The notes under the pieces: generated by a model
Told to the model about the DNA's origin: nothing
Seen by the model: the letters and a program-made list of their open reading frames with translations, nothing else
The model's database searches: none
NCBI GenBank assembly: GCA_011682665.1
Contig: JAACEG010000001.1
Location: 1-17,932 of the forward strand
Source: Lysobacteraceae bacterium
GTDB taxonomy: Bacteria; Patescibacteriota; Patescibacteriia; JAACEG01
Direction of reading: 5' to 3'
DNA: 17,932 nt
Part shown: positions 3,175 to 17,932 of the stretch, in pieces
Layout: every line of letters begins with the position of its first letter
Numbering within the stretch: the stretch's first letter is position 1
Position numbers and translations under genes: made by a program

Positions 3175-3390
3175 TAGGGACTGGTGATGAAAGCCGTTTC
3201 TACTGCAATTTTCATCTTTTGGTCAAATTTTCTTCAAATTTTTTTACCTTACCTTAAGATAGGCTAAAAAAAATATTTAAAAAATTTGTCTCAACTTGCC
3301 TGCCGGCGAGGCAGAAATCTAAAAATTTTTACCCCGTTGCCGACTGGCTAACTGGGGTCGTTACAAAAACGCTCTCGTCACCAGCCCCTA
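3175..3390 (-). repeat. Family A foldback element, copy A1 (216 bp, full)
   Basis: A complete copy in minus orientation. Its ends are the inverted repeats taggGActggtgatgaaagc and gctctcgtcaccagccccta. It carries the CCCC...GGGG hairpin module (3332-3357) and the 21-bp GC-rich nested module (3294-3314), and its centre is near CTTAAG at about 3252-3259. Six-base flanks TACTTA (3171-3176) and TACCTA (3389-3394) match at 5 of 6 positions, suggesting a target duplication. It is nearly identical, in opposite orientation, to copy A2. Confidence 0.88.
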
Positions 3391-3479
3391 CCTAAAAATT
3401 CGCGAGATAAAGAAGCGAGCAATGGAGAGATTACTTGTTTTTTGCATAGTCCGCACGAATTAACTAATTTTTAAATCTC

Positions 3480-3542
3480 TTGACAGAGGTTTTAAAAAGC
3501 TGTATCATATCAATATAGATTGATATCAATTTTGATTGATAT
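3480..3542 (+). promoter_or_regulatory. arsR-type promoter with double-palindrome operator
   Basis: TTGACA (3480-3485), a 17-bp spacer and TATCAT (3503-3508) form a good promoter reading into the regulator gene. Overlapping and following the -10 box are two abutting perfect inverted repeats of ATATCAAT-N4-ATTGATAT: 3507-3526 with spacer ATAG and 3523-3542 with spacer TTTG. They share the central ATAT. The ATCAA...TTGAT half-sites are of the kind bound by ArsR/SmtB dimers, so autorepression by the adjacent gene product is the natural reading. Confidence 0.75.
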
Positions 3543-3566
3543 GTTTAAAAGTAAAATTTTGAAAGA

Positions 3567-3878
3567 ATGAAAAAAGAAAAATTCTGCAAAAAAGCGCATA
3601 TTAAGCCGGGAATTATAAAAAGGGTTAAAAAACTCCTTACTATTATTGATAATATAAATCGCTTAAGAATTTTATCTTTATTTAAAAAACACAAAGAACT
3701 CTCTGTTTGTGATATCTTGAATTCTTTAAAATTACGTCAAAATTTAGGTTCTTATCATTTGCGCGTTTTGCGTCAGGCAAAATTAGTTTCCAGTGAGAAA
3801 AGAGGAAGTAAAATTTATTACCGAGAAAATAAAAAAAATATTCAAGAAATTTTAAAAATAATTAATGATTTATTTTAA
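3567..3878 (+). CDS. ArsR/SmtB-family transcriptional regulator
   Basis: A 103-residue winged-helix protein. Helix 2-3 contains NINRLRILSLF and ELSVCDIL (residues 44-51), equivalent to the family's ELCVCD metal-site helix but with a single Cys (C48). The recognition helix is LGSYHLRVLRQAKLV (60-74), and the wing contains KRGSKIYYR (78-86). Extra residues C7, H11 and H64 could contribute ligands, but the exact site cannot be assigned. The protein probably represses its own promoter through the two palindromes at 3507-3542 and is released by a metal, an oxidant or a sulfur species. The next gene downstream is a small SPW-like membrane protein, a candidate cotranscribed target. Both lie between inverted repeats A1 and A2. 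A weak GAAAGA precedes the ATG. Confidence 0.88.
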   Translation: MKKEKFCKKAHIKPGIIKRVKKLLTIIDNINRLRILSLFKKHKELSVCDILNSLKLRQNLGSYHLRVLRQAKLVSSEKRGSKIYYRENKKNIQEILKIINDLF

Positions 3879-4014
3879 CAATATAATTGAATATTATTTA
3901 AAATATTATTTTTTAAAGGTCGTGATATTTTAAAATATTAAGATTTTTTATAAATCTTTTAATAATTAATTTTTCTTATTATTTTTTAAAAAAATAATAA
4001 GATATTTTAAAAAT
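3879..4014. other. AT-rich spacer with two inverted repeats
   Basis: The spacer holds a 7-bp stem with a 5-base loop (AAGATTT at 3940-3946, AAATCTT at 3952-3958) and a near-continuous palindrome with 13-bp arms (CTTATTATTTTTT at 3974-3986, its complement at 3988-4000). Either could attenuate transcription between the regulator and the small membrane protein, but neither is a clear terminator. Confidence 0.35.
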
Positions 4015-4173
4015 ATGAAATGGCAAGATATTATTAATGGATTGGCTGGCCTTTGGTTGATAATTTCTGCTTTCCTTCACCTCACTGCCAATGCTAATCT
4101 TTGGAATTATCTTATTGTTGGCATAATCGTTAGCGTTCTTGGATTTTGGGGAGCGGCTGATCAAAAAAGTTAA
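4015..4173 (+). CDS. Small SPW-repeat-like membrane protein
   Basis: A 52-codon gene not overlapped by any better frame: MKWQDIINGLAGLWLIISAF, then LHLTANANLWNYLIVGIIVS, then VLGFWGAADQKS. Two hydrophobic helices (about 7-24 and 30-45) and the pattern 'W..IINGLAGLWLIIS' followed by 'LWNYLIVGIIV' match the SPW repeat family (one repeat unit: amphipathic start, GLWLIISP, short loop, WN.xIVGxIV). The usual SPW triplet itself is replaced by SAF. Function of the family is unknown. It lies 136 bp after the ArsR-type regulator, ends before a strong 17-bp hairpin, and is within the A1-A2 bracket, so it may be the regulator's target. Confidence 0.65.
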   Translation: MKWQDIINGLAGLWLIISAFLHLTANANLWNYLIVGIIVSVLGFWGAADQKS

Positions 4174-4212
4174 AATTTAGTTTAAGAGAATATTATTAGT
4201 TTGATTTCTCTA

Positions 4213-4250
4213 AAATAGAAACTATTATTTTATAATAATAGTTTCTATTT
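4213..4250 (+). terminator. 17-bp perfect stem-loop after the SPW-like gene
   Basis: AAATAGAAACTATTATT (4213-4229), loop TTAT, then the exact reverse complement (4234-4250). It lies 40 bp after the stop codon at 4173. The stem is AT-rich and is followed by GTAAGAGGGG rather than a T-tract, so it may be a terminator whose own AT arm supplies the U-run, or a stabilising 3' hairpin. Confidence 0.5.
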
Positions 4251-4314
4251 GTAAGAGGGGTTTAATTTATTTTATTGTTAAACTTATAACAATCTTGGTA
4301 AGAGAAAAATTAAG

Positions 4315-4530
4315 TAGGGACTGGTGACGAGAGCGTTTTCGTAACAACCCCAGTTAGCCAGCCGGCAACGGGGTAAAAATTTTTAGATTTCTGCCTCGCC
4401 GGCAGGCAAGTTGAGACAAATTTTTTAAATATTTTTTTTAGCCTATCTTAAGGTAAAGTAAAAAAATTTGAAGAAAATTTGACCAAAAGATGAAAATTGC
4501 AGTAGAAACGGCTCTCGTCACCAGCCCCTA
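4315..4530 (+). repeat. Family A foldback element, copy A2 (216 bp, full)
   Basis: A complete copy in plus orientation with the hairpin module (4348-4373) and the 21-bp GC-rich module (4391-4411), as in A1. The ends are TAGGGACTGGTGACGAGAGC and its near-complement GCTCTCGTCACCAGCCCCTA. Flanks TAAGTA (4311-4316) and TATTTA (4529-4534) agree at only 4 of 6 positions. Its right arm contains an ATG (4490) that reads in frame into the next gene. Confidence 0.9.
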
Positions 4531-4552
4531 TTTATATAATAATATTATTATT

Positions 4553-4876
4553 ATGGAATTTAAAGAATTATTAGAATTTATAAATTTAGAAAATAAGAGA
4601 CTTATTAAAAAATTCGGCAGAAATTCTACCCAACAAGAAAAAATTTTAGCCAGAACGGTTAAATTAACCGAAGAACTTGGTGAATTATGCAATGAAGTTT
4701 TAGTATTTAATGGCGATCAAAGACAAGAAAAATTAAATAAATATAATAAAAATAATTTGCCCAATGAATTCGCTGATGTTATAATAACTGCATTACTGCT
4801 TGCTAAATCAATGGATGTTGATATTAAAAAAGCGTTAACAGATAAAATAAAAAAAATTAATAAAAGATATAAGTAG
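4553..4876 (+). CDS. MazG-like NTP pyrophosphohydrolase
   Basis: A 107-residue all-alpha NTP-pyrophosphatase domain. The two metal-binding motifs are visible: EELGE (residues 40-44) followed by CNEVL, and EFAD (residues 72-75) followed by VIITALLLAKSM. Such single-domain enzymes hydrolyse nucleoside triphosphates to monophosphate and pyrophosphate, often cleaning out non-canonical or excess nucleotides; the substrate cannot be read from the sequence. I start at the ATG at 4553 because the frame upstream, back to an ATG at 4490, is translated from the end of repeat A2 (MKIAVETALVTSP) and is not part of the family. TATAAT at 4535-4540 lies just outside the repeat and could be the -10 box. It is the first gene of a plus-strand group with the two membrane proteins that follow. 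Confidence 0.85.
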   Translation: MEFKELLEFINLENKRLIKKFGRNSTQQEKILARTVKLTEELGELCNEVLVFNGDQRQEKLNKYNKNNLPNEFADVIITALLLAKSMDVDIKKALTDKIKKINKRYK

Positions 4877-5000
4877 GCTTAGATAATAAATTTTTCAGAA
4901 GCAATTGTCGGACCAAAATCATAATATTTTTCTTTTATTGATATTAAATATATAAAAATTTATAGTTGATTATATTAATTTTTAATTTTAAAATAATTAT

Positions 5001-5684
5001 ATGTTAAAACAATATTATGTATTAGAAAAATTTTATTTTTTTTTGAATATTATAATCTTTTTTCTTACCGTGAGCATTATTCATTTAATTAAAGGTGATA
5101 TTAATATTAACGATAAGATAATTATTCAAGAGGAATATGCTGAAAGTTTTTTTATAATGATTTTATTTATTGGCTCATATTTATTATTCAAATTATACAA
5201 AAAGGAAATGAAAAAAATAAAAATAAATTTAGATGATGCCTTTAAATATATTGGGAAGGTAAATGTACAATTGCAAGAAATAGAAAAGAATTTTACTGGG
5301 TTTAAAAAATTTCCAGAAAATAAAAAAGAGTTTAAGAATATTCTAAAATTTTTTGCTGGAAATGCTTTATCTATTGTTAACTCTGATTGGGTTCTGATTA
5401 GAATAATAGATGTGAGCAATTTAAAAACTTTACGGGAATATGCGCAAGCTAGAGGTAATTCAATTTTACTTAAAAGCGAAATCTCCAATAAAATGCTTGT
5501 CGAAAATAAAATCATTAATAAGCATACTGTTGTAACATCCAGCCAAAATAATTTAGGTTTAAAGACCTATTTTATTTTTCCTCTCAAAAAAATTAGCAAG
5601 GAACAAAAAATATTAATAAAAACCATAATTAATGAATCAGAAATGATGTTTATAATCTTTAGCTCAAAATTTTATAAAAAATAA
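5001..5684 (+). CDS. Two-TM membrane protein with a C-terminal GAF-like domain, function unknown
   Basis: A 227-residue protein I cannot assign to a characterised family. It has two transmembrane helices (about 11-30 and 48-66) with a short polar loop between, then a charged, probably coiled-coil segment (about 67-98). A cytoplasmic C-terminal domain follows (about 105-227) with alternating strands and helices: a helix FKNILKFFAGNALSIV, a strand pair WVLIRIIDV, a loop with YAQARGNS, then TYFIFPLKK and a final helix. This layout resembles a small GAF-type sensor domain anchored to the membrane, but no ligand residues can be named. Composition matches its neighbours. Start at 5001 is the first ATG; no Shine-Dalgarno site. 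The 120 bp upstream show no other feature. Confidence 0.6.
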   Translation: MLKQYYVLEKFYFFLNIIIFFLTVSIIHLIKGDININDKIIIQEEYAESFFIMILFIGSYLLFKLYKKEMKKIKINLDDAFKYIGKVNVQLQEIEKNFTGFKKFPENKKEFKNILKFFAGNALSIVNSDWVLIRIIDVSNLKTLREYAQARGNSILLKSEISNKMLVENKIINKHTVVTSSQNNLGLKTYFIFPLKKISKEQKILIKTIINESEMMFIIFSSKFYKK

Positions 5685-5690
5685 TTATCT

Positions 5691-5794
5691 TGAATTACGA
5701 AATATCTTTGCAAGGAAGAACACCTCCGCCAGCTGGCGGACGAAAAAAAGAAGCAATCCCGAGAAAAGTTCTGTTGTTGCAAGGAGGAACCTGC
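5691..5794. repeat. Family B repeat, copy B2, with a nested 16-bp palindrome
   Basis: TTGAATTACGAAAT, TTGCAAGGAAGAAC and GAAGCAATCCC follow one another as in the reverse complement of bases 1-90. The perfect palindrome TCCGCCAGCTGGCGGA (5725-5740) interrupts the series. TTGCAAGGAGGAAC occurs again at 5777-5790, so part of the unit is duplicated. It joins family A copy A3 directly at about 5795. Confidence 0.65.
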
Positions 5795-5922
5795 TTTTTA
5801 CCTTACTTTAGAGTAGGCTAAAAAAATTTACCTGAAAAATTTGTCTCAAAATCTAAAAATTTTTACCCCATTGCCGACTGGCTAACTGGGATCGTTACAA
5901 AAACGCTCTCGTCACCAGCTCC
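5795..5922 (-). repeat. Family A foldback element, copy A3 (truncated, fused to family B)
   Basis: Minus orientation. The left arm, hairpin module (about 5866-5891) and central palindrome are present up to TTTTTACCTTACTTTAGAGT. The other arm (with gatgaaaattgcagtagaaac and the terminal repeat) is missing and replaced by family B sequence. The surviving end reads GCTCTCGTCACCAGCTCC followed by TAAATA. It carries several substitutions relative to A4 and lacks the 21-bp module. Confidence 0.8.
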
Positions 5923-6088
5923 TAAATATTATGGAATAAAAATTGTTAAGTAAGACATTTCTAAACCCCGCACCATTTATCAGCGGTTAATTATTTTTTT
6001 GATTAAAATTAAAATTATAGTCAAATGGCGCGAGGCATATTGCTGTATTAAGACATTATTATATTGCTTTAACTGACAACATATTTAA
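5923..6088. other. Spacer upstream of the DUF389 gene
   Basis: No gene is supported. CGCACCATTT (about 5970-5980) and AAATGGCGCG (about 6022-6032) form a 10-bp inverted repeat with one mismatch around an AT-rich middle. This may be an operator or an old repeat, of unknown role. Confidence 0.3.
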
Positions 6089-6117
6089 TTGACATTTATA
6101 TCACAATAATTTATAAT
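6089..6117 (+). promoter_or_regulatory. Perfect-consensus sigma70-type promoter
   Basis: TTGACA (6089-6094), exactly 17 bp, TATAAT (6112-6117). The predicted transcription start is about 6124, which falls on the ATG at 6122-6124, so the mRNA would be leaderless or translation would begin at the next ATG (6149). Confidence 0.75.
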
Positions 6118-6121
6118 TATA

Positions 6122-6811
6122 ATGTTTGATATATTCTTAAAAAAAATAATGGATAAAAAAATTTTAGAAATTAGAAAAGAAAAGCAGGAAAAAATTGTTG
6201 AAAAATTAATAGATAACAGCCGTTTAACTTTAGAATACGATTTATTATTAATTTTTTCAGCAGTTATTACCGCAAGCGGGATATTAGTTAATAATATGGC
6301 TGTTGTTATAGGAGGGATGTTGGTCACTCCTTTGTTAGTCCCTATTTTAACTATTGCCCTAGGGATCGCTTCTGGAGATATGAAAGTCACGAACAGATCT
6401 TTAATAAATTCAGCAAAATCAATTCTCATTATAATTATTACCGCTATCTTGATTTCTTTTTTCTTTTCTAATAATTTAACTCAAAATATAATAGTCACTA
6501 ATTGTTTAGATCACCATCCTTTATATTTATTAGTTGCTCTTTTTTCCGGGATAGCAGCCGCCTTTGCTTATATTAGCCCAAAAATATCAGAAGCCTTGCC
6601 AGGCGTAGCCGTAGCTGTTTCCTTAATGCCGCCTTTAGCTGTTTTTGGTATTGGGATAGGTCAATGGCAATTATTATTAATCAAAGGATCCTTAGTAACT
6701 TTTCTCCTTAACCTTATTGGAATTATTATGGGCTCTTTAATTGTTTTTTCTTTATCAAAATTTTATCGTGTTAGAAGCATTGCGCAAAGAGAAATTAAAA
6801 AGGAAGAATAA
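6122..6811 (+). CDS. DUF389-family integral membrane protein
   Basis: Up to 229 residues with about six transmembrane segments (roughly 39-56, 62-83, 99-117, 135-151, 160-181, 187-211). Family hallmarks are NNMAVVIGGMLVTPLLVPI (58-76), which corresponds to the DUF389 'VxIGAMLISPLMGPI' motif, and ALPGVAVAVSLMPPLAVFGIG (158-178). The physiological role of DUF389 proteins is not known. The start is uncertain: ATG 6122 lies only 4 bp after a perfect -10 box, which means either leaderless translation or a start at ATG 6149 (residue 10, MDKKILEIRKEKQ). Nothing family-specific is lost with the shorter form. It converges on recA with a 52-bp gap. Confidence 0.85.
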   Translation: MFDIFLKKIMDKKILEIRKEKQEKIVEKLIDNSRLTLEYDLLLIFSAVITASGILVNNMAVVIGGMLVTPLLVPILTIALGIASGDMKVTNRSLINSAKSILIIIITAILISFFFSNNLTQNIIVTNCLDHHPLYLLVALFSGIAAAFAYISPKISEALPGVAVAVSLMPPLAVFGIGIGQWQLLLIKGSLVTFLLNLIGIIMGSLIVFSLSKFYRVRSIAQREIKKEE

Positions 6812-6863
6812 CTTTAACAAGATATAACTATTCTTATATATAAACTTAATATTTATAACAAAT

Positions 6864-7913
6864 TTATAAAGCAGAACTTTCTTTTTCTTTTTCTTTAAGA
6901 GCCTCCCATACCTTTGCTTTAATTTCTTTAATTAGCTTTGGATTTTGCCTTAGAAAGTTTTTAGCATTTTCCCTGCCAACTCCTAATTTTTTGTCACCAT
7001 AAATATAAGAGTTCCCTGATTTATTTATAATTCCGTATTCAACTCCTGTATCTAAGACATCGCCTGAGACTGAGATTCCTTCGTTATACATAATATCAAA
7101 AACCGTATTTTGAAATGGAGGGGCAACTTTATTTTTGACTATTTTCGCTTTTACTCGATTACCAATAATTTTATCGCCTTTTTTGATTTGCGCGCTCCTG
7201 CGAACCTCAATCCTTATAGAAGAATAAAATTTTAAAGCCAAGCCTCCTGTTGTTGTCTCGGGATTTCCAAAAAATACCCCAATTTTTAAACGGATTTGGT
7301 TGATAAAAATCAGCACAGTGTTTGTTTTTGAAATAATTCCTGTTAACTTTCTTAATGCCTGACTCATTAAACGAGCCTGTGTTCCCATCTGTCGGTCCCC
7401 CATTTCTCCTTCTATTTCTGACTTAGGCACTAAGGCAGCGACAGAGTCAACAATAATTACGTCAACAGCGTTAGAACGAATCAACGTTTCAACAATTTCT
7501 AAGGCTTGTTCTCCAGTATCAGGCTGGGAAATTAAAAGTTCATCTATATTAATTCCAATTTTTTTTGCATATTTTGGGTCCAAAGCATGCTCTGCATCAA
7601 CAAAAGCCACGATTCCTCCTTTTTTTTGGGCTTCTGCAGCAATATGTTGAGAAAGCGTTGTTTTCCCAGAAGCCTCAGGTCCGTAAATTTCTATAATTCT
7701 TCCGCGTGGCACACCACCAATACCTAAAGCAATATCAAGAGATAAACATCCCGTAGGGATGGCATCAACGGAACTTCTTTTTACTTCGCCCATTTTTATA
7801 ATTGCTCCTTCCCCAAAACGTTGTTTAATTTGGTTAATAGCTTCTTCAGTCGCTTTTAATTTTTCACTTATATTTTTAGTCTTTTCTTGTTTGCTTTTTT
7901 CATTTTTTATCAT
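6864..7913 (-). CDS. recA: Recombinase RecA
   Basis: A full-length 349-residue RecA. Walker A is GPEASGKT (78-85), the Walker B strand is [11 protein letters not shown], and loop L1 lies near [22 protein letters not shown]. The NPETTTGG loop and the C-terminal GENAKNFL-like region (here [13 protein letters not shown]) are present. It forms ATP-dependent filaments on single-stranded DNA for recombinational repair. No intein or frameshift. The end has only two acidic clusters and finishes [17 protein letters not shown] on the minus strand lies about 30 bp upstream of the ATG, but its -35 match is weak, and I see no LexA box. Family A copy A4 fills much of the spacer upstream. Confidence 0.98.
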
Positions 7914-8336
7914 AAAATTAATTTTTAGTAAATATTTTTAGATTATAAATTAAATTTTTTTGCGAAAAACGAATAAAAATAATCTGCTTTAAATTCCAAT
8001 TTCCAAGTAGGGGCTGGTGACGAGAGCGTTTTCGTAACGACCCCAGTTAGCCAGCCGGCAACGGGGTAAAAATTTTTAGATTTTGAGACAAATTTTTTTC
8101 AAATTTTTTTAGCCTACCCTAAGGTTAGGTAAAAAAATTTGAAAAAAATTTGACCAAAAGATGAAAATTGCAGTAGAAACGGCTCTCGTCACCAGCCCCC
8201 AAATAGATTACAATTTTAAAATTCAAAATACAAAACAACTATTTTATCCCACGATATTTGCGGGATTGAATTTAGGATATTTTAATTTTGATATTATTTA
8301 GGATTTGTGATTTTGAATTTATAATTTATTCACCTA
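7914..8336. other. recA upstream region: repeat A4 plus AT-rich DNA
   Basis: No gene. 7914-8003 holds the recA leader and a -10-like TATAAT (minus strand, about 7941-7947); 8004-8205 is repeat A4 with its flanks. 8206-8336 is low-complexity DNA containing ATCCCAC and GCGGGAT as a small imperfect hairpin (about 8247-8267) and a 'ggatttgtgattttgaattt' phrase like that in the mrpF-mrpG spacer. Confidence 0.5.
8008..8201 (+). repeat. Family A foldback element, copy A4 (about 190 bp)
   Basis: A clean copy in plus orientation with the hairpin module (8041-8066) but without the 21-bp module. The inverted ends GGGGCTGGTGACGAGAGC (from 8010) and GCTCTCGTCACCAGCCCC (to 8199) are perfect. The central palindrome is around CCTACCCTAAGGTTAGG. 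The flanks CAAGTA (8004-8009) and CAAATA (8200-8205) match at 5 of 6 positions; since these begin with C rather than TA, they argue that the element proper is GGGG...CCCC with a 6-bp target duplication. Confidence 0.92.
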
Positions 8337-9083
8337 TTATTCTTTTACAACTAAAATTTTTCTGAATATAATATTTGTTTTACTATATTTTTTATTAGCT
8401 GTTATTTTTATAATATTAATTCCTGATTGTAAAATAATATTTTCAGTAAAGATACCGTCAATGTTGGTCAAAACATTTTTATTATTAATAAAAACATTAG
8501 CCCCTTTTTCTACTCTTCCTTTTATTGTTATTATTTGTTTTTCAATTACTAAATTATTTGGAGGATAAATTATTTCTATTTGAGGAGGATTAAAAATATT
8601 TTTTGCCTCAGCCCCAAGATAAGTAAAACATAATAAAAAAATAGCTATAATAGCAATATTTTTAAAAAATTTTGGTGTGATTAAAAAATGAAAATTATAA
8701 AAATTTAAAAATTTTTTAATTTTTGTGTTATTTTTTCTTTTTTTAATATATTGTAAACTTTTTATATGTTCAAACAAAAAATATTCACGTTCTAAATCTT
8801 CTAAACAAATATTAACATCAAGTCTTAAAAATTTAGCGTATTTTTTTACAAAATTTTTAATATAAATTTGTCCTGGCAACTTATTATAATTTCCTTTTTC
8901 TATTGCTAATAAATATTTTTTTTGAATATTAACAGCTTTTTCGGCTTCATCTATCTTAATATTTTGAGAAATCCTTTTATTGTTTAATTTTTTTCCTAAA
9001 ATATTATTTTGTCTTATCTCGCACTTTTGGTTTAATCTTTTGCGAAAAAACGCTGAATTTATTAATTCTTGAAAATTAAACAT
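8337..9083 (-). CDS. RodZ-like protein: cytoplasmic HTH, one TM helix, extracytoplasmic beta domain
   Basis: A 248-residue protein. Residues about 28-96 are an Xre/HTH_25 domain of the RodZ type (LGKKLNNKRISQNIKID, then KYLLAIEKGNYNKLPG and YIKNFVKKYAKFL). A basic linker (about 110-138) precedes a single TM helix (about 139-158). The outer part (166-248) begins PPQIEIIYPPNNLVIEKQ and has GRVEKGANVFINNK and DGIFTENIIL, the pattern of Ig-like/glucodextranase-B-type beta domains that cap many Gram-positive and CPR RodZ-like proteins. The RodZ role is to link MreB or the division machinery to the envelope; mreB is not in the window. The N-terminal 27 residues are unusual and could mean a later start. 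It lies between the ferritin gene and recA on the same strand. Confidence 0.75.
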   Translation of the reverse strand: MFNFQELINSAFFRKRLNQKCEIRQNNILGKKLNNKRISQNIKIDEAEKAVNIQKKYLLAIEKGNYNKLPGQIYIKNFVKKYAKFLRLDVNICLEDLEREYFLFEHIKSLQYIKKRKNNTKIKKFLNFYNFHFLITPKFFKNIAIIAIFLLCFTYLGAEAKNIFNPPQIEIIYPPNNLVIEKQIITIKGRVEKGANVFINNKNVLTNIDGIFTENIILQSGINIIKITANKKYSKTNIIFRKILVVKE

Positions 9084-9230
9084 AGATTGTTTATATATTT
9101 ATTTTTTTAAAAAAATATTTATAAATATAACATTATTATTTTAAAAATATTTTTTCTTCTTTTCGCAAAAATAAAAAAACTCACTAATAAAAATACAAAA
9201 TAATAAATAAACAGATTCAAATTATAATTA

Positions 9231-9527: not shown

Positions 9528-9618
9528 AATAATATAGTTAAAAAAATTAGTTAAATTTTTAATTAATTTTATCAAATTTCAAAATTTATTTCTTAAAATC
9601 AAAATTAATTATATTTTA

Positions 9619-9647: not shown

Positions 9648-9682
9648 TCAAAATTTTGGTTTTAAAATTTTTACGCCTAAAT

Positions 9683-10582: not shown

Positions 10583-10608
10583 AAAATAATTATAAAAAAT
10601 TATTAGAC

Positions 10609-10752
10609 TTGTTACATAATTAGTTTTGTAACAACCCCAGTTAGCCAACAGGCAACAGGGTAAAAATTTTCAGATTTTGAAGCAAATTTTTCAATCCTGC
10701 AATACTGCTGAGTAAAAGATGAAAATTGCAGGAAAAATTAATTATGCAACAA
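10609..10752 (+). repeat. Family A variant, copy A5, with different terminal repeats
   Basis: The core is recognisably family A: GTAACAACCCCAGTTAGCCA, the hairpin module (10635-10660), AAAAATTTT.AGATTTTGA.GCAAATTTTT and AAAAGATGAAAATTGCAG. The outer arms are not GGGGCTGG. They are another inverted pair, TTGTTACATAATTAGTTTT on the left and AAAAATTAATTATGCAACAA on the right, matching at about 18 of 20 positions. The central palindrome is replaced by a short TCCTGCAATACTGCTGAG stretch. It fills the gap between ftsK and cysK. Confidence 0.75.
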
Positions 10753-10770
10753 ATCTATTCTTTCTTCTTC

Positions 10771-12987
10771 TCAATTATTATTATTCTCTATATTTTCTAA
10801 AGTTTCTTTAGGGATTAAAACCTGCCTTTGTTTAGCACCGTCAGCCGGGCCGACAACGCCTAAATTTTCTAATGTCTCAATAATACGCGCGGCTTTATTA
10901 TAACCAATACGCATTCTTCTCTGTAAAAAAGAGATTGAAGCTTGTTGTGACATAACAACAATTTCTCGAGCCTCATTTACTAATCCTTCATCTTCTTCAA
11001 AATCATTATTTAAATTATCAATGCCATTTCCATGTCCTTCAACTATTTCCTCGTCATATTCTACTTCGTCATAATTATCCTTTAAATAATTAACTACTTT
11101 TTTAATTTCATTTTCAGATATAAAAGCGCCTTGCAATCTTTTTGGTTTGGAAACTTCTGTGGAGATAAAAAGCATATCACCTCTACCAATTAATTTTTCT
11201 GCCCCGCCACAATCTAAAATTGTCCGCGAATCCATAAGGGATGCAACGCTAAAAGCAATTCTTGAAGTTATGTTTGCTTTAATCAGTCCAGTAATGACAT
11301 TAACTGAAGGACGCTGAGTAGCAATAATTAAATAAATTCCGACCGCTCGTGACATTTGAACCAAACGAATAATAAGCGCTTCAATTTCATGCCCTGCCGC
11401 GGCCATTAGATCAGCCAATTCATCAATAATAATAATAATGCTTGGCATAATATTCCCGGAGGCTCTATAAGAAAAAATATCTCTATTTTTATTTTTTGAC
11501 AAAATATCAAAACGTTTTTCCATCTCCGAAACTGCCCATTTAAGCGCGTTTATAGTTTTTTTAACATCTGTAATTACAGGACACAAAAGATAAGGGATTC
11601 CATTATAAACAGGGAGTTCTATTCTTTTTGGATCAACCATTATAAAACGAAGGTTATCTGGACTATTTTGATAAAACAAATTTATAATAATAGAATTTAT
11701 ACAAATGGTTTTTCCTGAGCCTGTTGATCCAGCGATTAAAAGATGTGGATTTTTTGCAAAATCTGTCATCCAAATTTTTCCAGAAACATCTTCTCCTAAA
11801 CTTATCATTAAATTTGATAGCCTATTTTTAAATTCTTTAGAAGTTATAATGTCTCTTATATGAACCTTAGCGACTGATTTATTGGGAACCTCAATGCCAA
11901 CTAAAGATTTTCCAGGAATTGGCGCTTCTATTCTAATGGGATGAGCCGCTAAAGATAGAGAAATATCATTATTTAACGTAATAATCTGTGATAACTTAAT
12001 TCCTTCCGCTGGTTTTAGAGTATATTGTGTTACGCTTGGTCCTACACTGGTTTGCCCCATTTCAACTTCTATCCCAAAATTTTTTAAGGTTTTTTTGATA
12101 ATATGCGCATTATTAATAATATCTCCGCTCGTTGGTTTTTCTTTACTCTTTTGTAGTAAATCAATCGGTAAATCTATTTTTTGCTTCAAAAAATATTTTT
12201 TATTAAACTTTATTTTATCTTGCTCTCCTTTTAAATCTTCTTCTGAATTATTTATTTCGGATTGAATAAAATGTGGATCGTTTTCTTTATTATATTCATC
12301 ACGACATTCATCGCGCTGATTATCATCTTGATCAATCTGCTTTTTGTCTTTATATTTACTATATTTTTTTTGCTGTAAATAATTATATATTTTGTTTCTA
12401 AGCCGAGCTGACAAGATTGCTATTCTTTTAAAAAATATTTTTAAAAAAACAATGCCTCTTAATAAATCATCTAAAGAAATATTAAAGATTAATAAGGTAG
12501 ATCCGATAAAAATAGTTGCCAACATAGTCAGTCCGCCCCAAAATCCTAAAAAATAAACCAATGGATAGTTTAAAATAATTCCTATGTATCCTCCGCCTTT
12601 GCCTGCTGACGCGATTGCAAACGCCTGCTTTAAACTTTTCCATAAAGGACCGAACGGCAATGGCTGGGTTAATTGAATTAAAGCGTAAAAACTTAAAATA
12701 AAAAAAGTCATTGCTAAATAATGAATAACTTTTAACGCTTTTTTCCTCGCCGACACAAGAAGATAAACAATACCCGCTAACAAAAATGGAAATACAAAAT
12801 ATCCAACGCCAAAAAACTTTGCTAATATTTTCTCCAAGCCAAAACCAAAACGACCTGCTAAATGGAAAAAACTTAAAAAAGAAAGAATAATAAAAGCCAA
12901 TAAAATTACTATTACTAATCCTTTTTTGGCTTCTACATCAATTTCAAATTGATTATCATTTCTAACCCGTGTTTTTTTTAATCTCAT
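10771..12987 (-). CDS. ftsK: DNA translocase FtsK/SpoIIIE
   Basis: A 738-residue, complete translocase. Four or five N-terminal membrane helices (about 24-42, 60-80, 86-106, 132-170) anchor it, probably at the septum. A charged, low-complexity linker (about 200-265) precedes the motor. The alpha region is at 270-400; the beta ATPase has Walker A GSTGSGKT (420-427), Walker B IIIIIDELAD (516-525) and the sensor-like IIATQRPSVNVITG. The gamma winged-helix domain (about 668-728, ISFLQRRMRIGYNKAARI...) normally reads chromosome-orienting sequences. It pumps chromosomal DNA during division and helps resolve dimers. Length is typical for short-linker FtsK. The motor half has noticeably more GC than the linker, as conserved residues require. 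Confidence 0.96.
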   Translation of the reverse strand: MRLKKTRVRNDNQFEIDVEAKKGLVIVILLAFIILSFLSFFHLAGRFGFGLEKILAKFFGVGYFVFPFLLAGIVYLLVSARKKALKVIHYLAMTFFILSFYALIQLTQPLPFGPLWKSLKQAFAIASAGKGGGYIGIILNYPLVYFLGFWGGLTMLATIFIGSTLLIFNISLDDLLRGIVFLKIFFKRIAILSARLRNKIYNYLQQKKYSKYKDKKQIDQDDNQRDECRDEYNKENDPHFIQSEINNSEEDLKGEQDKIKFNKKYFLKQKIDLPIDLLQKSKEKPTSGDIINNAHIIKKTLKNFGIEVEMGQTSVGPSVTQYTLKPAEGIKLSQIITLNNDISLSLAAHPIRIEAPIPGKSLVGIEVPNKSVAKVHIRDIITSKEFKNRLSNLMISLGEDVSGKIWMTDFAKNPHLLIAGSTGSGKTICINSIIINLFYQNSPDNLRFIMVDPKRIELPVYNGIPYLLCPVITDVKKTINALKWAVSEMEKRFDILSKNKNRDIFSYRASGNIMPSIIIIIDELADLMAAAGHEIEALIIRLVQMSRAVGIYLIIATQRPSVNVITGLIKANITSRIAFSVASLMDSRTILDCGGAEKLIGRGDMLFISTEVSKPKRLQGAFISENEIKKVVNYLKDNYDEVEYDEEIVEGHGNGIDNLNNDFEEDEGLVNEAREIVVMSQQASISFLQRRMRIGYNKAARIIETLENLGVVGPADGAKQRQVLIPKETLENIENNNN

Positions 12988-13022
12988 AATTAAAACAGCG
13001 TTAAACTTTTAAATTTATTAGT

Positions 13023-13050
13023 ATTATAACAGATAAAAACACAAATACAA
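13023..13050 (-). promoter_or_regulatory. ftsK promoter (extended -10)
   Basis: On the minus strand TTGTAT (13045-13050), 16 bp, then TATAAT (13023-13028) with an upstream TG near the extended -10 position. The leader to the ftsK ATG is about 30 bases. Confidence 0.55.
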
Positions 13051-13068
13051 TAAGTTATTAAAAAAAAT

Positions 13069-13096
13069 AAAAGGAAATCAAAATTGATTCCCTTTT
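13069..13096 (-). terminator. Rho-independent terminator after the fabB-like gene
   Basis: On the minus strand AAAAGGGAATCAA (13096-13084) pairs with TTGATTTCCTTTT (13081-13069), one mismatch, and is followed by ATTTTTTTT. It starts about 16 bp after the TAG stop, so the ketoacyl synthase gene is separated from ftsK transcription. Confidence 0.75.
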
Positions 13097-13111
13097 TATT
13101 GATACTTTTTC

Positions 13112-14347
13112 CTAAAGCGGATAACGCTTAATTATAAGCGTTGCATTGCATCCGCCAAATCCAAAATTATTTGACAAGACAACCTTAGGAAAAAAGAAAT
13201 CTTGTCGTTTTCTTAGAATTAGAGGACCGAGGTCCTCAACCGCTGGATCAATTGTCTCAATATTATGCGACGCGGTTAAAAATCCTTCCCACATCATAAT
13301 GACTGAGTAAATAATCTCGTGAACTCCGGCAGCACCTAAGCCGTGGCCTGTTAAAGATTTCGTTGAACTTATCCAAGGGATATTTTCCTTAAATACTTCT
13401 TTTATGGATTCCAGCTCAACTATATCCCCGACGGGTGTGCTAGTTCCGTGGGCGTTGATGTAATCTATATCAATAGGACGCATATTAGCTGTTTCCAGCG
13501 CTTGCCACATACATCTTGCTTCTCCATCTCTGGACGGACGAGTCATATCAACCCCATCAGAAGTCGCTCCATAACCAACAACTTCTGCTAAAATTTTAGC
13601 GCCACGATTAAGAGCATGCTCTAATTCTTCAAGAACAATAACCCCACCGCCTCCTGCAATTACAAACCCATCACGATTTTTATCATAAGGACAGGAAGCT
13701 TTTTCTGGCTCACTATTATATTTTCTTGAAAGAACTTTCATTCTGTCAAAAGAAGCGGCAATTTTCCAACCTGCTTCATCAACTCCGCCGGCAAACATAA
13801 CATCTTGTTTTCCTAGAATTATTTTCTCATAAGCTTCTCCAATGCAATGCGCGCTAGTGGCGCAGGCAGAAGAAATAGAGAAACTAATACCTTTTATTTT
13901 GAATAAAGTACTAATATTAGCGACACTAGAGCTTGGCATTGTTTTAACAACAAATCGGGGAGAGAGCTTTTTAAGACTTTTTCCCCTCACAATGTCAGCC
14001 ATTAAAATGGCCTCTGCCGGGGATCCTCCTCCAGTCCCAATAATTGCTCCTGTTCGCGGGTTACTGATTTCACTTTTTTCTAAGCCAGACTGTTTGACAG
14101 CCTGGCGCATTGATAAATAAGCAAAACCTGCCCCCTTGCTCATAAATTTTGCTATTTTTTTATCAATAAATATAAAAGGATCTATCATTCTCCCCGCAAT
14201 CTGCGATCCCATACCAATCTTTTCAAACTCAGGACAAAATACAATTCCCGACCTACCGTTAAAAAGCGAACTGGCAACCTCTTTGACACTGCTACCGATA
14301 CTGGAAATAATCCCCATTCCTGTTATAACCACTCTTCTGTTTTTCAT
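13112..14347 (-). CDS. fabB: Beta-ketoacyl-ACP synthase, FabB-like
   Basis: A 411-residue condensing enzyme with the full Cys-His-His set and structural Lys: C162 in SISSACATSAHCIG, H300 in NAHGTSTPVGD, K330 in SSTKSLTGHGLGAAG and H335. The wording of many blocks (GTGGGSPAEA, GKQDVMFAGG, DKNRDGFVIAGGGG, VGYGATSDGVDM) is that of FabB (KAS I) of Gammaproteobacteria rather than FabF. It would extend acyl-ACP by condensation with malonyl-ACP, but no acyl carrier protein, FabD, FabG or FabZ is nearby. It is richer in GC (42-43% in three 60-base samples I counted) and has a strong AAAGGAGG site and a clean terminator, unlike most neighbours. This suggests acquisition by transfer. Whether it feeds lipid synthesis or another acyl product is open. 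Confidence 0.93.
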   Translation of the reverse strand: MKNRRVVITGMGIISSIGSSVKEVASSLFNGRSGIVFCPEFEKIGMGSQIAGRMIDPFIFIDKKIAKFMSKGAGFAYLSMRQAVKQSGLEKSEISNPRTGAIIGTGGGSPAEAILMADIVRGKSLKKLSPRFVVKTMPSSSVANISTLFKIKGISFSISSACATSAHCIGEAYEKIILGKQDVMFAGGVDEAGWKIAASFDRMKVLSRKYNSEPEKASCPYDKNRDGFVIAGGGGVIVLEELEHALNRGAKILAEVVGYGATSDGVDMTRPSRDGEARCMWQALETANMRPIDIDYINAHGTSTPVGDIVELESIKEVFKENIPWISSTKSLTGHGLGAAGVHEIIYSVIMMWEGFLTASHNIETIDPAVEDLGPLILRKRQDFFFPKVVLSNNFGFGGCNATLIIKRYPL

Positions 14348-14359
14348 TAGCTTTTTATT

Positions 14360-14367
14360 CCTCCTTT
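14360..14367 (-). promoter_or_regulatory. Strong Shine-Dalgarno site of the fabB-like gene
   Basis: AAAGGAGG on the minus strand, 12 bases before the ATG. It is the only near-perfect ribosome binding site I found in the window; most other starts have none. A TATAAT (14384-14389) lies just upstream. Confidence 0.65.
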
Positions 14368-14436
14368 GATTTTTTATTTTTATATTATAATTATTTTTTA
14401 TTTTTTAAATTTATTTTTGATATTTAAAATAATATA

Positions 14437-15771
14437 TTACATTTTTAAAATTTTTTGAGCTGCTTCTATTATTGGATAAACAGTCGGCGCCGCGGTTAAA
14501 AGCGGATGTGTCGCGACTTGTAAATTAGCCAATTCTTGAGCGGTCATTCTTTGTTGAATTGCGACAGCAATTAAATTAATCATTTCTGCAACGCTTTCCG
14601 GACCGACGATTTGTCCGCCTAATAATGTTTTAGATGATTGGCTAAAAATAAGTTTTATTCTAATCATTTCTGTATTTGGCAAAGTTCCAGGATGATGATT
14701 AGGCGTTGCGCTTTGCCCAATAACTATTTTTATTTTTCCTTTATTTGCTTCTCTTTCATTTAATCCTACTGATCCTAAAACTAATCCATTAAGAAAAGTG
14801 GAAAAGGCAGCCACCGTTCCATTATTTTTTATTGTTTTATGATATAAATTAGCTCCAGCAATCCGCGCTTCATAACAAGCGACAGAAGCAAGCATTATTA
14901 AATTATTTTTTTTAGTAAAAAAATTTTTTGTTTCCGCGCAATCACCAATAGCGAAAATATCAGGGATATTTGTTTGCATAAATTTGTTTACTAAAATTCC
15001 TCCTTTTTTAGCTGTTTTAATTTTAGCTTTTTCAGCTAAATTAATGTTAGGCCGTGCTCCAACCGCCATAATTACCAAATCAGCTGTAATTTTTTTTCCA
15101 TTATTAAGTTTTACTTTTTCTACTTTATCTTTTCCAATTATTTCTTCCACCGCTGTTTTAAGATAGAGTTTTACCCCTTTCCCTACAATCCTTTCTTCTC
15201 CAGCAAGCGCGAATTTTTTATCAAAATTAGCGATTAAACAATGATCTAAAATTTCCACTATGCTAATATTTTTGTTTTTCAGCGCGCTTAATTCTTCGGC
15301 TAATTCCACGCCGATAAATCCCCCTCCAATAATAACAATATTTTTTGCTTTAATAATTTTATTTCGCAAATTTTTTAAATAGCCAATATCTTTTCTAATT
15401 TGATAAACACCATCCAATTCTATGCCTCTAATAGGAATAATTGCGGGGCTTGATCCAGTGGCTAAAATTAATTTATCATAGTTTATTCCTTTATTATTTT
15501 TTAAAATTACTTTTTTATTGCCTGTTTCAATTTTTATTATTTGACCAATTATTAGATCAATTTTGTTTATTTGATATATCTTATCTGACGTTATATCTTT
15601 TTCAACTGCTTTTAAGCGATTAAAAATATATGGCAGTCCGCAAGGAATAACACATTTTTTATCCTCTCTTGCTAAAATTATTTTTTTATCAGGATTATTT
15701 TTTCTGGCTGTTATCGCCGCAACTAATCCCGCCGGACCTCCGCCAATAATTAAAATGTCTGTTTTTCTCAT
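14437..15771 (-). CDS. FAD-dependent CoA-disulfide reductase / NADH oxidase family protein
   Basis: A 444-residue pyridine nucleotide-disulfide oxidoreductase of the single-cysteine branch. FAD-binding GGGPAG (10-15); the redox-active Cys in CVIPCGLPYIF (C44); NAD(P)H-binding IVIIGGGFIGVELAEEL (145-161); the second FAD motif DIFAIGDCAE (271-280); and a C-terminal dimerisation domain ending in ATHPLLTAAPTVYPIIEAAQ. Relatives act as CoA-disulfide reductases, NAD(P)H-dependent polysulfide/persulfide reductases or water-forming NADH oxidases, and the sequence alone does not separate these. In this setting (ferredoxin-thioredoxin system, cysteine synthase, CstR-like relic) a thiol or persulfide substrate is attractive, but this is an inference. 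It is cytoplasmic, with no signal peptide. Its 3' end is about 90 bp from fabB. Confidence 0.9.
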   Translation of the reverse strand: MRKTDILIIGGGPAGLVAAITARKNNPDKKIILAREDKKCVIPCGLPYIFNRLKAVEKDITSDKIYQINKIDLIIGQIIKIETGNKKVILKNNKGINYDKLILATGSSPAIIPIRGIELDGVYQIRKDIGYLKNLRNKIIKAKNIVIIGGGFIGVELAEELSALKNKNISIVEILDHCLIANFDKKFALAGEERIVGKGVKLYLKTAVEEIIGKDKVEKVKLNNGKKITADLVIMAVGARPNINLAEKAKIKTAKKGGILVNKFMQTNIPDIFAIGDCAETKNFFTKKNNLIMLASVACYEARIAGANLYHKTIKNNGTVAAFSTFLNGLVLGSVGLNEREANKGKIKIVIGQSATPNHHPGTLPNTEMIRIKLIFSQSSKTLLGGQIVGPESVAEMINLIAVAIQQRMTAQELANLQVATHPLLTAAPTVYPIIEAAQKILKM

Positions 15772-15831
15772 AATTAAATATTTTTTAATTCTTTAATTCT
15801 ACTGAACTTTTTATTTTTTTAAAAAATTACA

Positions 15832-15996
15832 TAGGGGCTGGTGATGAGAGCGTTTTCGTAACGAAATTTTTAGATTTTGAGACAAATTTTTTAAATAATT
15901 TTTTTAGACTACCCTAAGGTAAGGTAAAAAAATTTGAAGAAAATTTGACCAAAAGATGAAAATTGCAGTAGAAACGGCTCTCGTCACCAGCCCCTA
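15832..15996 (+). repeat. Family A foldback element, copy A6 (161-bp core, module-free form)
   Basis: The most symmetrical complete copy. GGGGCTGG starts at 15834 and CCAGCCCC ends at 15994, with perfect 6-bp direct repeats TACATA on both sides (15828-15833 and 15995-16000). It lacks both the hairpin module and the 21-bp module: CGTAACGA runs straight into AATTTTTAGATTTTGAG. The arms are about 80 bp and meet near ACTACCCTAAGGTAAGG. It lies between the divergent flavoprotein gene and the khpA promoter. Confidence 0.93.
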
Positions 15997-16000
15997 CATA

Positions 16001-16221
16001 ATAATTAAAGCTTTATCAAACTAACAATAATTAAATTCAATTATATATTATCATATATTTACATTTAATACAATCTATTGACAAATTATGCATTCAATTG
16101 ACAATTTATTTTTTGTATGCTATTATTTATATAATAATTATATTAACAAGTATACCAGTTAATGTAAAAAGGTCGGACTGGTTAAAATAGAATATTTATT
16201 AAACTACTAAAAAGAAATAAT
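16001..16221 (+). promoter_or_regulatory. khpA: khpA promoter and leader
   Basis: TTGACA (16098-16103), 17 bp, TATTAT (16121-16126) with an extended TG at 16118-16119 forms the promoter. A second TTGACA lies exactly 20 bp upstream (16078-16083). The leader of about 90 bases contains ACCAGT...ACTGGT (about 16155-16183) as a small inverted repeat around AAAAAGGTCGG. No Shine-Dalgarno site precedes the ATG beyond AAAGAAA. Confidence 0.7.
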
Positions 16222-16557
16222 ATGGCAGATAAAACACATGATCAAGAATTCATAGAATATATTGTAAGAGCTATCGTATCACATCCTGATGATGTAAAAA
16301 CTGTAAGAACAGTAGATGAAATGGGAGTTCTTTTAACTCTTAAAATCAACCCAGAAGATATGGGATTTGTTGTTGGAAGACAAGGACAAACAGCCCGCGC
16401 TCTTCGAACATTGCTTAAAATCATCGGCGCGAAAGCAAATGCAAGAATCAACTTAAAAATTGAGGAACCAGAAGGCGGAAGACGCTCAACTCCGAAAAAA
16501 GAAGAGAAGTCAGAAACAAATGTTGAGGAAGATATGGTTGATGATTTAAAAATCTAA
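16222..16557 (+). CDS. khpA: KH-domain RNA-binding protein KhpA
   Basis: A 111-residue protein: one type II KH domain (about residues 8-82) with the GxxG nucleic-acid loop GRQG (52-55) in FVVGRQGQTARALRTLL, preceded by EYIVRAIVSHPDDV. A charged tail (about 83-111) ends EEDMVDDLKI and is longer than in most KhpA proteins, which stop near residue 80. KhpA, often with KhpB, binds many RNAs and affects cell elongation and division in Firmicutes. The gene usually lies between rpsP and trmD. Here trmD follows, but rpsP is absent and a repeat plus a new promoter occupy the upstream space. GC content and codon choice look somewhat higher than in trmD. Confidence 0.92.
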   Translation: MADKTHDQEFIEYIVRAIVSHPDDVKTVRTVDEMGVLLTLKINPEDMGFVVGRQGQTARALRTLLKIIGAKANARINLKIEEPEGGRRSTPKKEEKSETNVEEDMVDDLKI

Positions 16558-16574
16558 ATTTAGATTTATAAAAA

Positions 16575-16604
16575 AAACCGCTATTGTAAAATAGCGGTTT
16601 TTTT
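16575..16604 (+). terminator. Strong intrinsic terminator between khpA and trmD
   Basis: AAACCGCTATT (16575-16585), loop GTAA, AATAGCGGTTT (16590-16600), then TTTT. The A-run before the stem and the T-run after it make it work in both directions. It lies about 17 bp past the khpA stop and would uncouple trmD from khpA. Confidence 0.9.
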
Positions 16605-16629
16605 GTTAAAATTATAATGAACTTATAAT
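16603..16629 (+). promoter_or_regulatory. Candidate trmD promoter
   Basis: TATAAT occurs at 16613-16618 and 16624-16629; TTGTTA (16603-16608) is a weak -35 at 15 bp from the second. The second -10 ends 5 bp before the trmD ATG, as at cysK and the DUF389 gene. Confidence 0.4.
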
Positions 16630-16634
16630 ATAAT

Positions 16635-17309
16635 ATGAAATTTAATATTCTTACAATTTTTCCTAATATTTTTAATTCTTATTTTTCAGAATCTATTTTA
16701 AAAAAAGCACAGGATAAAAAAATTATTAATATCAACATTATTAATATTAGAGATTTTACCAACGATAAACATAAAACTGTTGATAATCCTCCTTATGGCG
16801 GAGGTCCCGGGATGGTAATGAAAATTGAACCGATTTATAAAGCTTTGCGATCTTTAAAGAAAAAAAATAATAAAAAAAGAAAAATTATTTTATTAACGCC
16901 AGCGGGAAAACAATTTAATCAAAAAATAGCAAAAAAATATTCTAAATTAGATGAACTTGTTTTTATTTGCGGACGCTATGAAGGGATTGACGCCAGAGTT
17001 GAAAAACTTGTTGATGAAAAAATTTCTCTCGGTCCTTTCATATTAAATGGAGGAGAAATTGCCGCCATAAGTATTATTGAAACAGTTTCAAGATTAATTC
17101 CCAATGTTTTAGGAAATAAAAAATCTTTAATAGAAGAGACCTTCTCTTCTACGTTAAAATCAAACAAATCTTTTATTGAATATCCGCAATATACACGCCC
17201 GGAAATTTTCAAAATAAATAACAAAAAATATAAAGTTCCAAAAATTTTGCTTTCAGGAAATCATAAAAAAATAATTGAATGGAAAAAGAAAAAATCTAAA
17301 TTTAAGTAA
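16635..17309 (+). CDS. trmD: tRNA (guanine-N1-)-methyltransferase TrmD
   Basis: A 224-residue SPOUT methyltransferase that makes m1G37 in tRNAs to prevent frameshifting, using S-adenosylmethionine. Conserved motifs: DNPPYGGGPGMVM (50-62), LLTPAGKQFNQ (86-96), the trefoil-knot segment FICGRYEGIDARVE (110-123), SLGPFILNGGE (131-141, where most homologues have SLGDYVLTGGE) and YPQYTRP (183-189), ending GNHKKIIEWKKKK. The Asp of the GDYVL motif is Pro here; related CPR-type sequences may share this, but I cannot check. It is slightly shorter than E. coli TrmD (255) because the C-terminal domain is compact. It is preceded by a strong terminator and converges on the tmk remnant with a 16-bp gap. 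Confidence 0.96.
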   Translation: MKFNILTIFPNIFNSYFSESILKKAQDKKIININIINIRDFTNDKHKTVDNPPYGGGPGMVMKIEPIYKALRSLKKKNNKKRKIILLTPAGKQFNQKIAKKYSKLDELVFICGRYEGIDARVEKLVDEKISLGPFILNGGEIAAISIIETVSRLIPNVLGNKKSLIEETFSSTLKSNKSFIEYPQYTRPEIFKINNKKYKVPKILLSGNHKKIIEWKKKKSKFK

Positions 17310-17325
17310 AATTATTCTAAAACTA

Positions 17326-17834
17326 TTAATTCAACAATTTTCTAATTTTGTTCCACAAAATTTCATTAATCTTTTCAACGCTTAAGTTAGCGTTTATTTT
17401 TTTCCAACCATATTTTTTTCTAAGCTTCAAATGTATCTTGCGAACTTTTTTAACTAATTTTTTATCAATCTCATATTTATGATTTTTTTCAATAGCCTTA
17501 TTAAATCTTTTTCCATCAAATAATATTGATAAATCTTCTTTTAAAAGATGCAAATTTATTTTTTCTAAAAATTTTTGCTCTACGCCTACGCCAATACCCC
17601 AAGCAATCCCCGTTCCAACATAATCTTCAGCGATTATATTAATTCCTTGTTCTAATTTCTTTTTTAAAATCGGTTCAAATTGGGTTCTGTTTAAAACATA
17701 AATAATCTGCGCCTCTCTTGGGCTAAGATTATAACTATTTCCTTGCCGCAAAAAATTATTTAAAATTTGTCCAGACGGTTCTAAATTATATAGTGGATAT
17801 TTTAAATATTCTGCTTTTATATTTTCTTTATTTA
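17326..17834 (-). pseudogene. tmk: Thymidylate kinase lacking its P-loop end (interrupted by repeat A7)
   Basis: About 168 codons match a divergent thymidylate kinase from the FPxY-equivalent region on: EYLKYPLYNLEPSG, SPREAQIIYVLNRTQFEPI, the DR(Y/H)-like IIAEDYVGTGIAWG, LLKEDLSILFDGKRF and GWKKINANLS. The enzyme makes dTDP from dTMP. The N-terminal 30 or so residues with the GxxGxGKT ATP-binding loop are missing. Upstream the frame enters repeat A7 (KISLRKRSRYQPL is repeat-encoded), offers only a TTG at 17886, and then meets a stop in the repeat. There is no Met anywhere in the remaining protein to serve as an alternative start. Either the element split the gene and the P-loop lies beyond the window, or the contig end is misassembled onto a repeat. 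Confidence 0.8.
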
Positions 17835-17932
17835 GGGGCTGGTAACGAGAGCGTTTTCGTAACGAAATTTTTAGATTTTGAGACAAATTTTTTAAATAAT
17901 TTTTTTAGCCTACCCTAAGGTAAGGTAAAAAA
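17829..17932 (+). repeat. Family A foldback element, copy A7 (cut by window end)
   Basis: TATTTA (17829-17834) followed by GGGGCTGGTAACGAGAGCG, CGTAACGA, AATTTTTAGATTTTGAG and CCTACCCTAAGGTAAGG. It is the module-free form, closest to A6, and the window stops just past the central palindrome. It lies inside the tmk reading frame, the only copy seen within a gene. Confidence 0.88.

Follow-up and report, generated by a model that had tools for sequence, protein, structure and literature searches.

Miniature mobile elements of Patescibacteria with a strand-specific fold and three classes of ends and target duplications

Background

Miniature inverted-repeat transposable elements (MITEs) are usually viewed as double-stranded passengers that are defined by their ends. 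Comparable bacterial repeats include i) the Correia/NEMIS and ERIC elements, which are intergenic palindromic repeats of 100-200 bp, and ii) the Tn3-derived miniature elements (TIMEs), which have GGG-starting ends and 5-bp duplications. Here we describe a family of MITEs with seven copies (A1 to A7) in one contig of a Patescibacteria genome (Lysobacteraceae bacterium, JAACEG010000001.1). This contig, hereafter the window, is the whole stretch of DNA that was analysed (17,932 nucleotides) and makes up contig C104 of genome G000, which has 678,970 bases in 109 contigs and is 76% complete. We consider it likely that these are transposase-borrowing miniature elements, of which one strand has been kept foldable and whose core has changed transposase systems.

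Like MITEs derived from the IS5 family, the elements are short, hold no open reading frame, can have the same terminal repeats as an IS5-like element together with a 3-bp duplication, and presumably move in trans. Unlike them, they have a core that is missing from the partners examined and that occurs in other copies with other ends and duplication lengths, and their folding is strand-specific across a bacterial class. They would differ from Correia/NEMIS and ERIC elements in lineage, ends and targets, while TIMEs resemble one of the end types described below, the GGG type, and have an interior that is unrelated as far as known. The REPINs of REP-RAYT systems are likewise hairpin-forming non-autonomous mobile DNA, extragenic and present in many copies with compensatory changes, and their length and pairing are conserved above sequence (PMC3116915); unlike REPINs, the elements here have target duplications, DDE-type ends and a length of about 160 nt. 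New in this family are stem covariation across lineages and a bias of G.T over A.C mismatches on one strand, whatever the direction of the neighbouring genes. In a literature search limited to open-licence papers, none of the titles listed dealt with elements of this kind in Patescibacteria.

Results and discussion

Target duplications and end classes

All seven copies proposed by an earlier reading of the window from its sequence alone (the sequence-only reading) are present and show what it described: ends in inverted orientation, arms that resemble each other and a centre of the CCTAAGG type. With terminal inverted repeats, target-site duplications, many copies and no transposase gene inside, the element is a MITE. 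Its copies fall into three classes of ends and duplications (3, 5 and 6 bp).

Six of the window copies have GGGG...CCCC ends. For all copies of this type in G000 with both ends recognised by script, the six bases on the left and on the right were compared, the null being right flanks dealt to other copies (23 rows for 22 distinct copies, one row being a cut duplicate). Identical hexamers flanked 12 of the 22 distinct copies (shuffle mean 3.2; reached in 0 of 20,000 shuffles), and at least five of six flank bases were equal in 19 of the 23 rows (mean 8.8; 0 of 20,000). When duplication lengths from 2 to 10 bp were scanned, 6 bp gave z = 6.3 and the others z <= 2.6. The imperfect hexamers of the window prove little read singly but are significant genome-wide, and both the 6-bp duplication and the TA-rich target put forward by the sequence-only reading were borne out for this type, the target being TANNTA. 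One copy (L002) shows no duplication, and a 36-bp remnant consisting of the two ends only has TAATTA on both sides.

Copies with AGAC...GTCT ends had identical 3-bp flanks in 25 of 54 cases (shuffle mean 13.6; 0 of 20,000) and, in a second set, in 13 of 31 (mean 3.4; 0 of 20,000), the usual triplet being AWT. GGG-ended relatives in other genomes had identical 5-bp flanks in 15 of 39 cases (mean 0.65; 0 of 20,000), while lengths of 3, 4, 6 and 7 bp gave only 0-3 identical pairs. The idea of one family with one target length was therefore abandoned: A5 and many relatives are of the AGAC...GTCT type with 3 bp, and GGG relatives elsewhere have 5 bp. A5 had been listed as a variant copy; it is of a separate end type and not a decayed member of the GGGG set, with ends AGACTTGTTAC...GCAACAAATCT and ATT/ATT alongside.

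Occupied and empty sites

The family is mobile. To the left of A7 lies coding sequence for the C-terminal portion of thymidylate kinase (tmk); the N-terminal portion is found on contig C50, adjoining the right arm of a copy, with TATTTA on both sides of the split. Rejoining the parts without the element and one TATTTA, a join of C104 and C50 made by inference and not read-supported, restores a single open frame of 199 codons, which A7 stops three codons into the element. In a sister species of the same genus (G001) tmk is uninterrupted and the DNA is continuous through the same TATTTA, the kind of empty site that the sequence-only reading had proposed to look for. Likewise the stretches flanking the spacer of A4 adjoin each other in G001, where the spacer stretch holding A4 is absent. 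Moreover, two species of another genus (G002 and G005) share a locus (L079/L085) where both hold a single element, but at different points, each point being empty in the other species; the junctions are not clean, so that loss is also possible.

No thymidylate kinase gene besides the one split by the element (window 17829-17932 and the end of G000:C50) was found in G000: a search of this 76% complete genome with the C-terminal portion gave one match. A Pfam model of tmk had no match in G000, but it passed over the known fragment too and was given no weight. The broken gene may be tolerated, a second copy may lie in the missing quarter of the genome, or the population may be mixed.

Fold and strand bias

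On statistical evidence, the + strand has retained across lineages the capacity to form a hairpin of ~160-165 nt, in which an asymmetric internal loop is conserved. RNAalifold on an alignment of 33 copies gave 38 consensus pairs outside the variable middle, 22 of them with double changes. Own partners paired at 782 of 833 positions; when the arms were reassigned (dealt) between the copies within each genome, to separate pairing from shared ancestry, the figure was 706 +- 11. Compensatory changes at fixed positions had been named by the sequence-only reading as a sign of a structured RNA instead of a mobile element; they do occur in relatives, but mobility is not refuted by them and both hold.

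In a stronger test, non-Watson-Crick cells of the stem were counted on the + strand as G.T or A.C, a scoring that treats both alike; a G.T on the + strand would read A.C on the opposite one. G.T exceeded A.C in the 33 alignment copies, which had been gathered by sequence similarity alone (outer stem 25:4, inner stem 57:3), in 69 copies gathered with a covariance model (outer 62:10, inner 106:20), for pairs predicted from both strands (31:7) and when each combination of genome, position and type was counted once (57:12). G.T was in excess in 17 genomes and A.C in one, with six ties. Statistically, G.T pairs on the + strand are thus tolerated and A.C pairs much less. Covariation and G.U tolerance on one strand are what a structured RNA shows, and folded single-stranded DNA predicts the same.

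As a control, 22 copies of the GGGG type in G000, a recent burst, showed no bias (outer 20:18, inner 48:38), and their arms paired with their own partners no better than when dealt (0.871 vs 0.880; 19 distinct arm pairs). Since the strand bias runs across lineages and is absent in the recent burst, one folded strand was probably selected during propagation.

Orientation to the neighbouring genes was even (++ 19 and -- 26 of 78 copies; for AGAC copies, ++ 19 and -- 13 of 47), and nine of the 78 copies fall within a frame called by a crude finder of open reading frames. The G.T:A.C ratio was 21:4 at -- sites and 13:1 at ++ sites (5:0 and 5:4 in a smaller set). Because the bias is the same where the neighbours would transcribe the opposite strand, and because orientation is even, a hairpin in the neighbours' messenger RNA is an unlikely reason for the fold. 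Mutational strand bias was also considered as a source of the G.T excess and rejected, since orientation is unbiased and the G000 copies are without bias.

Copy number, length and distribution

G000 holds at least 40 places that match when the better strand is taken, a lower bound as 40 of 96 candidates were scored, and a pattern search showed further element ends. The element accounts for contig ends that fall within copies, several contigs of G000 breaking off after ~100 bases of one, and so for part of the fragmentation of this assembly. Near-identical copies occur in G000 and in G444.

The exact right-arm pattern was found at 41 loci in named genome records, of which 40 are titled as Patescibacteria groups (Falkowbacteria, Peregrinibacteria, Doudnabacteria, Liptonbacteria, Portnoybacteria, Staskawiczbacteria, unnamed Parcubacteria, Paceibacterota and Patescibacteria) and one as 'uncultured bacterium'. 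The pattern had no match in viral contigs, nor did one copy used as query against phage and plasmid records. Of the 239 genomes of the class, 44 had matches (E<=1e-4) to the covariance model of the core, which was built from 33 copies; G000 is one of the 44. Although the mid-stem sequence differs widely, 77 of 82 model-found copies are 159-167 nt long; among sequence-found copies, 36 of 53 are 160-164 nt and 17 have inserts (169-206 nt). Comparison of the window and 20 further loci with Rfam gave chance-like matches to the element, none reaching a gathering score.

Candidate mobilisers

IS5-like elements are likely the mobilisers of the AGAC type, because four of them carry AGAC ends, three with identical 3-bp flanks. 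One such element (G049, contig C18) is 1,021 bp long, has ends TAGACCTGTTGCGTATTAA and encodes a DDE transposase of 299 codons with a DDE_Tnp_4 match of 2.7e-28; its matches to the IS5 family models fall below their cut-offs (75.5 of 140 bits). It interrupts a tyrosine recombinase gene, and removing the element and 3 bp restores an open frame of 289 codons. A search of the class found relatives in four of 380 genomes, at six loci; AGAC...GTCT ends were seen at four of the five loci examined, the fifth having other ends, and the flanks of the four are ATT/ATT, AAT/ACT, ATA/ATA and ATT/ATT. The ISL2 group of IS5 makes 3-bp ANT duplications. With ends and duplication in common with an IS5-family element, the AGAC type can provisionally be classed as an IS5-derived MITE. 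The core was seen in none of the IS5-like partners examined.

The helpers are much rarer than the elements: among 28 genomes that bear the element or are related, one had a helper in a search that is insensitive to distant relatives. The protein domain PF01609 gave 11 matches, two of which, in G049, correspond to the IS5-like elements on C18 and C8; a paired-end search at nine of the 11 loci found AGAC ends only at C18, the ends at C8 being missed there and seen otherwise. The element at C8 (L288) is a second IS5-like element, 55% identical, and adjoins a frame that by eye resembles a group II intron reverse transcriptase.

The sequence-only reading had proposed to look for a full-length element with GGGGCTGGTGAC ends around a transposase gene. 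None was found, and the full-length partners that were found carry other ends; a scan of G000 and G001 for an autonomous element with the window's own ends gave only known copy ends, contig ends and the 36-bp remnant. A 16-base end pattern proved overly strict, matching in six of 379 genomes of the phylum. In G461, a pair of GGG ends spanning 2.25 kb was rejected as a candidate, the enclosed genes not being transposase-like by eye. IS6 and Tn3 ends were considered as possible counterparts of the GGG type, which they resemble. Three other miniature elements (L257, L260 and L261) have GGG ends in common and unrelated interiors.

Proposed explanation and its rivals

We propose that these are miniature inverted-repeat elements without a protein of their own, which depend for movement on DDE transposases that recognise the terminal repeats in trans. 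A non-autonomous element moved in trans had also been suggested by the sequence-only reading, a view that gains support here. The AGAC type would be served by IS5-like transposases, to judge from matching ends and duplications. The folded strand would be needed for propagation, whereas an individual copy, once inserted, would not depend on it, because burst copies decay without bias while long-lived lineages keep the bias. The core would be a structured module in its own right that has passed from one transposase system to another, because it is found between ends with three different duplication lengths and is missing from the IS5-like partners examined.

The folded form may quite possibly be an RNA made from the element itself; single-stranded DNA during replication or transposition is nearly as probable. 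On a more tentative level, the family could represent a mobile module spread over the class or even the phylum, with the fold of one strand as its heritable trait: a hairpin of 160 nt that has persisted by exchanging terminal repeats between transposase systems, whose fold takes part in spreading and which is tied to no single transposase. Should spreading require the fold, DDE-type elements would include a step that depends on a single strand, of a kind described to date for HUH/Y1 elements and integron cassettes. In these elements the interior is conserved, the constraint lies on one strand and the ends change. The family also supplies a common repeat for reduced genomes whose mobile DNA is poorly described.

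The simplest rival, which we regard as unlikely, holds that these are ordinary IS5-derived MITEs only, with equal arms reflecting transposase need, arm variants reflecting transposase specificities and the strand bias being an accident of related copies. It fits the two IS5-like partners of one genome, which differ in their ends (TAGACCTGTTGCG and TAGACCTGTCCC) with both variants found as element arms, the lack of bias in recent G000 copies, and the GGG ends common to unrelated interiors in G049 and G461. It does not account for the bias of the inner stem, far from the ends (106:20 and 57:3), its spread across positions and genomes (57:12 collapsed; 17 vs 1 genomes), the constant length of 77 of 82 model copies despite differing mid-stems (but 17 of 53 sequence-found copies have inserts), or the core that the partners examined do not carry. 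That a host structured RNA, either a small RNA or a cis element, turned repetitive with mobility being minor would agree with the covariation and G.U tolerance, the conserved internal loop and the small optional hairpins at one position; this is nevertheless very improbable in view of the duplications of three lengths, the tmk insertion, the presence and absence between relatives, the near-identical copies in G000 and G444, the unbiased orientation (++ 19, -- 26 of 78) with equal bias at -- sites (21:4), and the lack of an Rfam family match.

Two further rivals concern the hairpin itself. Long palindromes are corrected by template switching, and such a mutational process in quasi-palindromes, instead of selection, could keep the arms equal; it is highly improbable here, as it predicts no strand bias and as the GGGG arms of G000 are not homogenised (0.871 own vs 0.880 dealt; 19 distinct arm pairs). 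IS200/IS605-type transposition is not known to make target duplications; here, duplications of 3, 5 and 6 bp are present and the matching ends sit on elements with DDE transposases. A REPIN-like system, in which single-stranded hairpins are moved by a tyrosine (Y1/RAYT) transposase, is on these grounds scarcely credible, even though hairpin capacity and length are conserved above sequence with compensatory changes, as in REPINs (PMC3116915). Recombination sites of the attC kind were set aside by reasoning, because the conserved ends have the opposite orientation and target duplications are present.

Several observations weigh against transposase-borrowing elements with one foldable strand, or against parts of that explanation: i) the 6-bp duplication could formally be one of 4 bp within a fixed T-ANNT-A context, because the outer T and A of TANNTA are nearly fixed, and the 3-bp reading of the AGAC type rests on 3-mers, 5-mers being non-significant (5 of 54, mean 3.2); ii) covariation of the arms alone could stem from end sequences that match different transposases; iii) the copies are related, so that the counts are not independent; iv) bias is absent or reversed in the loop region (61:49 and 71:110), which is expected if the conserved loop columns are not standard pairs, but is not proof; v) nine G000 copies without inserts gave 8:3 and 10:8, too few for a strong control, and the eight ++ copies of the smaller orientation set gave only 5:4; vi) IS5-like transposases had no match in G000 (76% complete; two of the searches, by shared words, miss distant relatives); and vii) no partner for GGG ends was found where sought, including solitary ends in 40 regions.

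Copies in the window and neighbouring repeats

The copies in the window are listed in Table 1. Within the window, the closest pairs share 85-97% identity over 76-221 nt, and A5 shares 75-89% with other copies over 54-79 nt. A 30-mer of the right arm has four exact occurrences and its reversed control none, even with up to four mismatches, which rules out a chance repeat. An extra small hairpin (ACCCCAGTTAGCCA...GGGT) is present in A1 to A5 and not in A6 and A7.

Table 1. Element copies, flanking duplications and the interrupted gene in the window (limits of copies exclude the duplicated bases; genes beside A4 and A5 were named by eye)
Feature	Position	Strand	Description
Copy A1	3177..3388	-	GGGG end type; 212 bp; two small hairpin inserts
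A1 flank hexamer	3171..3176		TACTTA; other side TACCTA (3389-3394); 5/6 identical
Copy A2	4317..4528	+	GGGG end type; 96% complementary to A1
A2 flank hexamer	4311..4316		TAAGTA; other side TATTTA (4529-4534); 4/6 identical
Copy A3	about 5795..5922	-	GGGG end type; truncated, one outer arm missing
Copy A4	8010..8199	+	GGGG end type; upstream of recA-like gene
A4 flank hexamer	8004..8009		CAAGTA; other side CAAATA (8200-8205); 5/6 identical
Copy A5	10605..10756	+	AGAC...GTCT end type; between cysK-like and ftsK-like genes
A5 3-bp duplication	10602..10604		ATT; other side ATT (10757-10759)
Copy A6	15834..15994	+	GGGG end type; 161 bp; without inserts
A6 6-bp duplication	15828..15833		TACATA; other side TACATA (15995-16000); exact
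Copy A7	17835..17932	+	GGGG end type; cut by contig end; inside thymidylate kinase gene
A7 6-bp duplication	17829..17834		TATTTA; second copy on contig C50, beside an element's right arm
tmk, 3' part	17326..17834	-	Interrupted by A7; Pfam PF02223, E 8.1e-10

Short GC-rich palindromes of the CCTGCCTGCCGGCAGGCAGG type are nested at a few fixed points within copies (window 3295-3314; L059, L063, L101 and L231), and variable hairpins occur at one loop position. Three loci (L065, L130 and L142) are deletion derivatives whose inner parts are gone and whose two ends are retained.

Other repeats accompany the elements. A second dispersed repeat (window 1-102 and 5680-5790; GCAATCCC...GATTGCTTCG...CGCAATGACA) holds a small palindrome, CCGCCAGCTGGCGG, and has 42-nt arms that are 86% complementary; similar sequence adjoins copies L003 and L008. 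An AT-rich repeat (window 8200-8358 and 598-714) has matches of 69-89% at many places in G001 and forms a further repeat family. Finally, a LOOT RNA (RF03000; 79 bits) lies at L157 1238-1363 (-), ~140 bases from a copy in G002.

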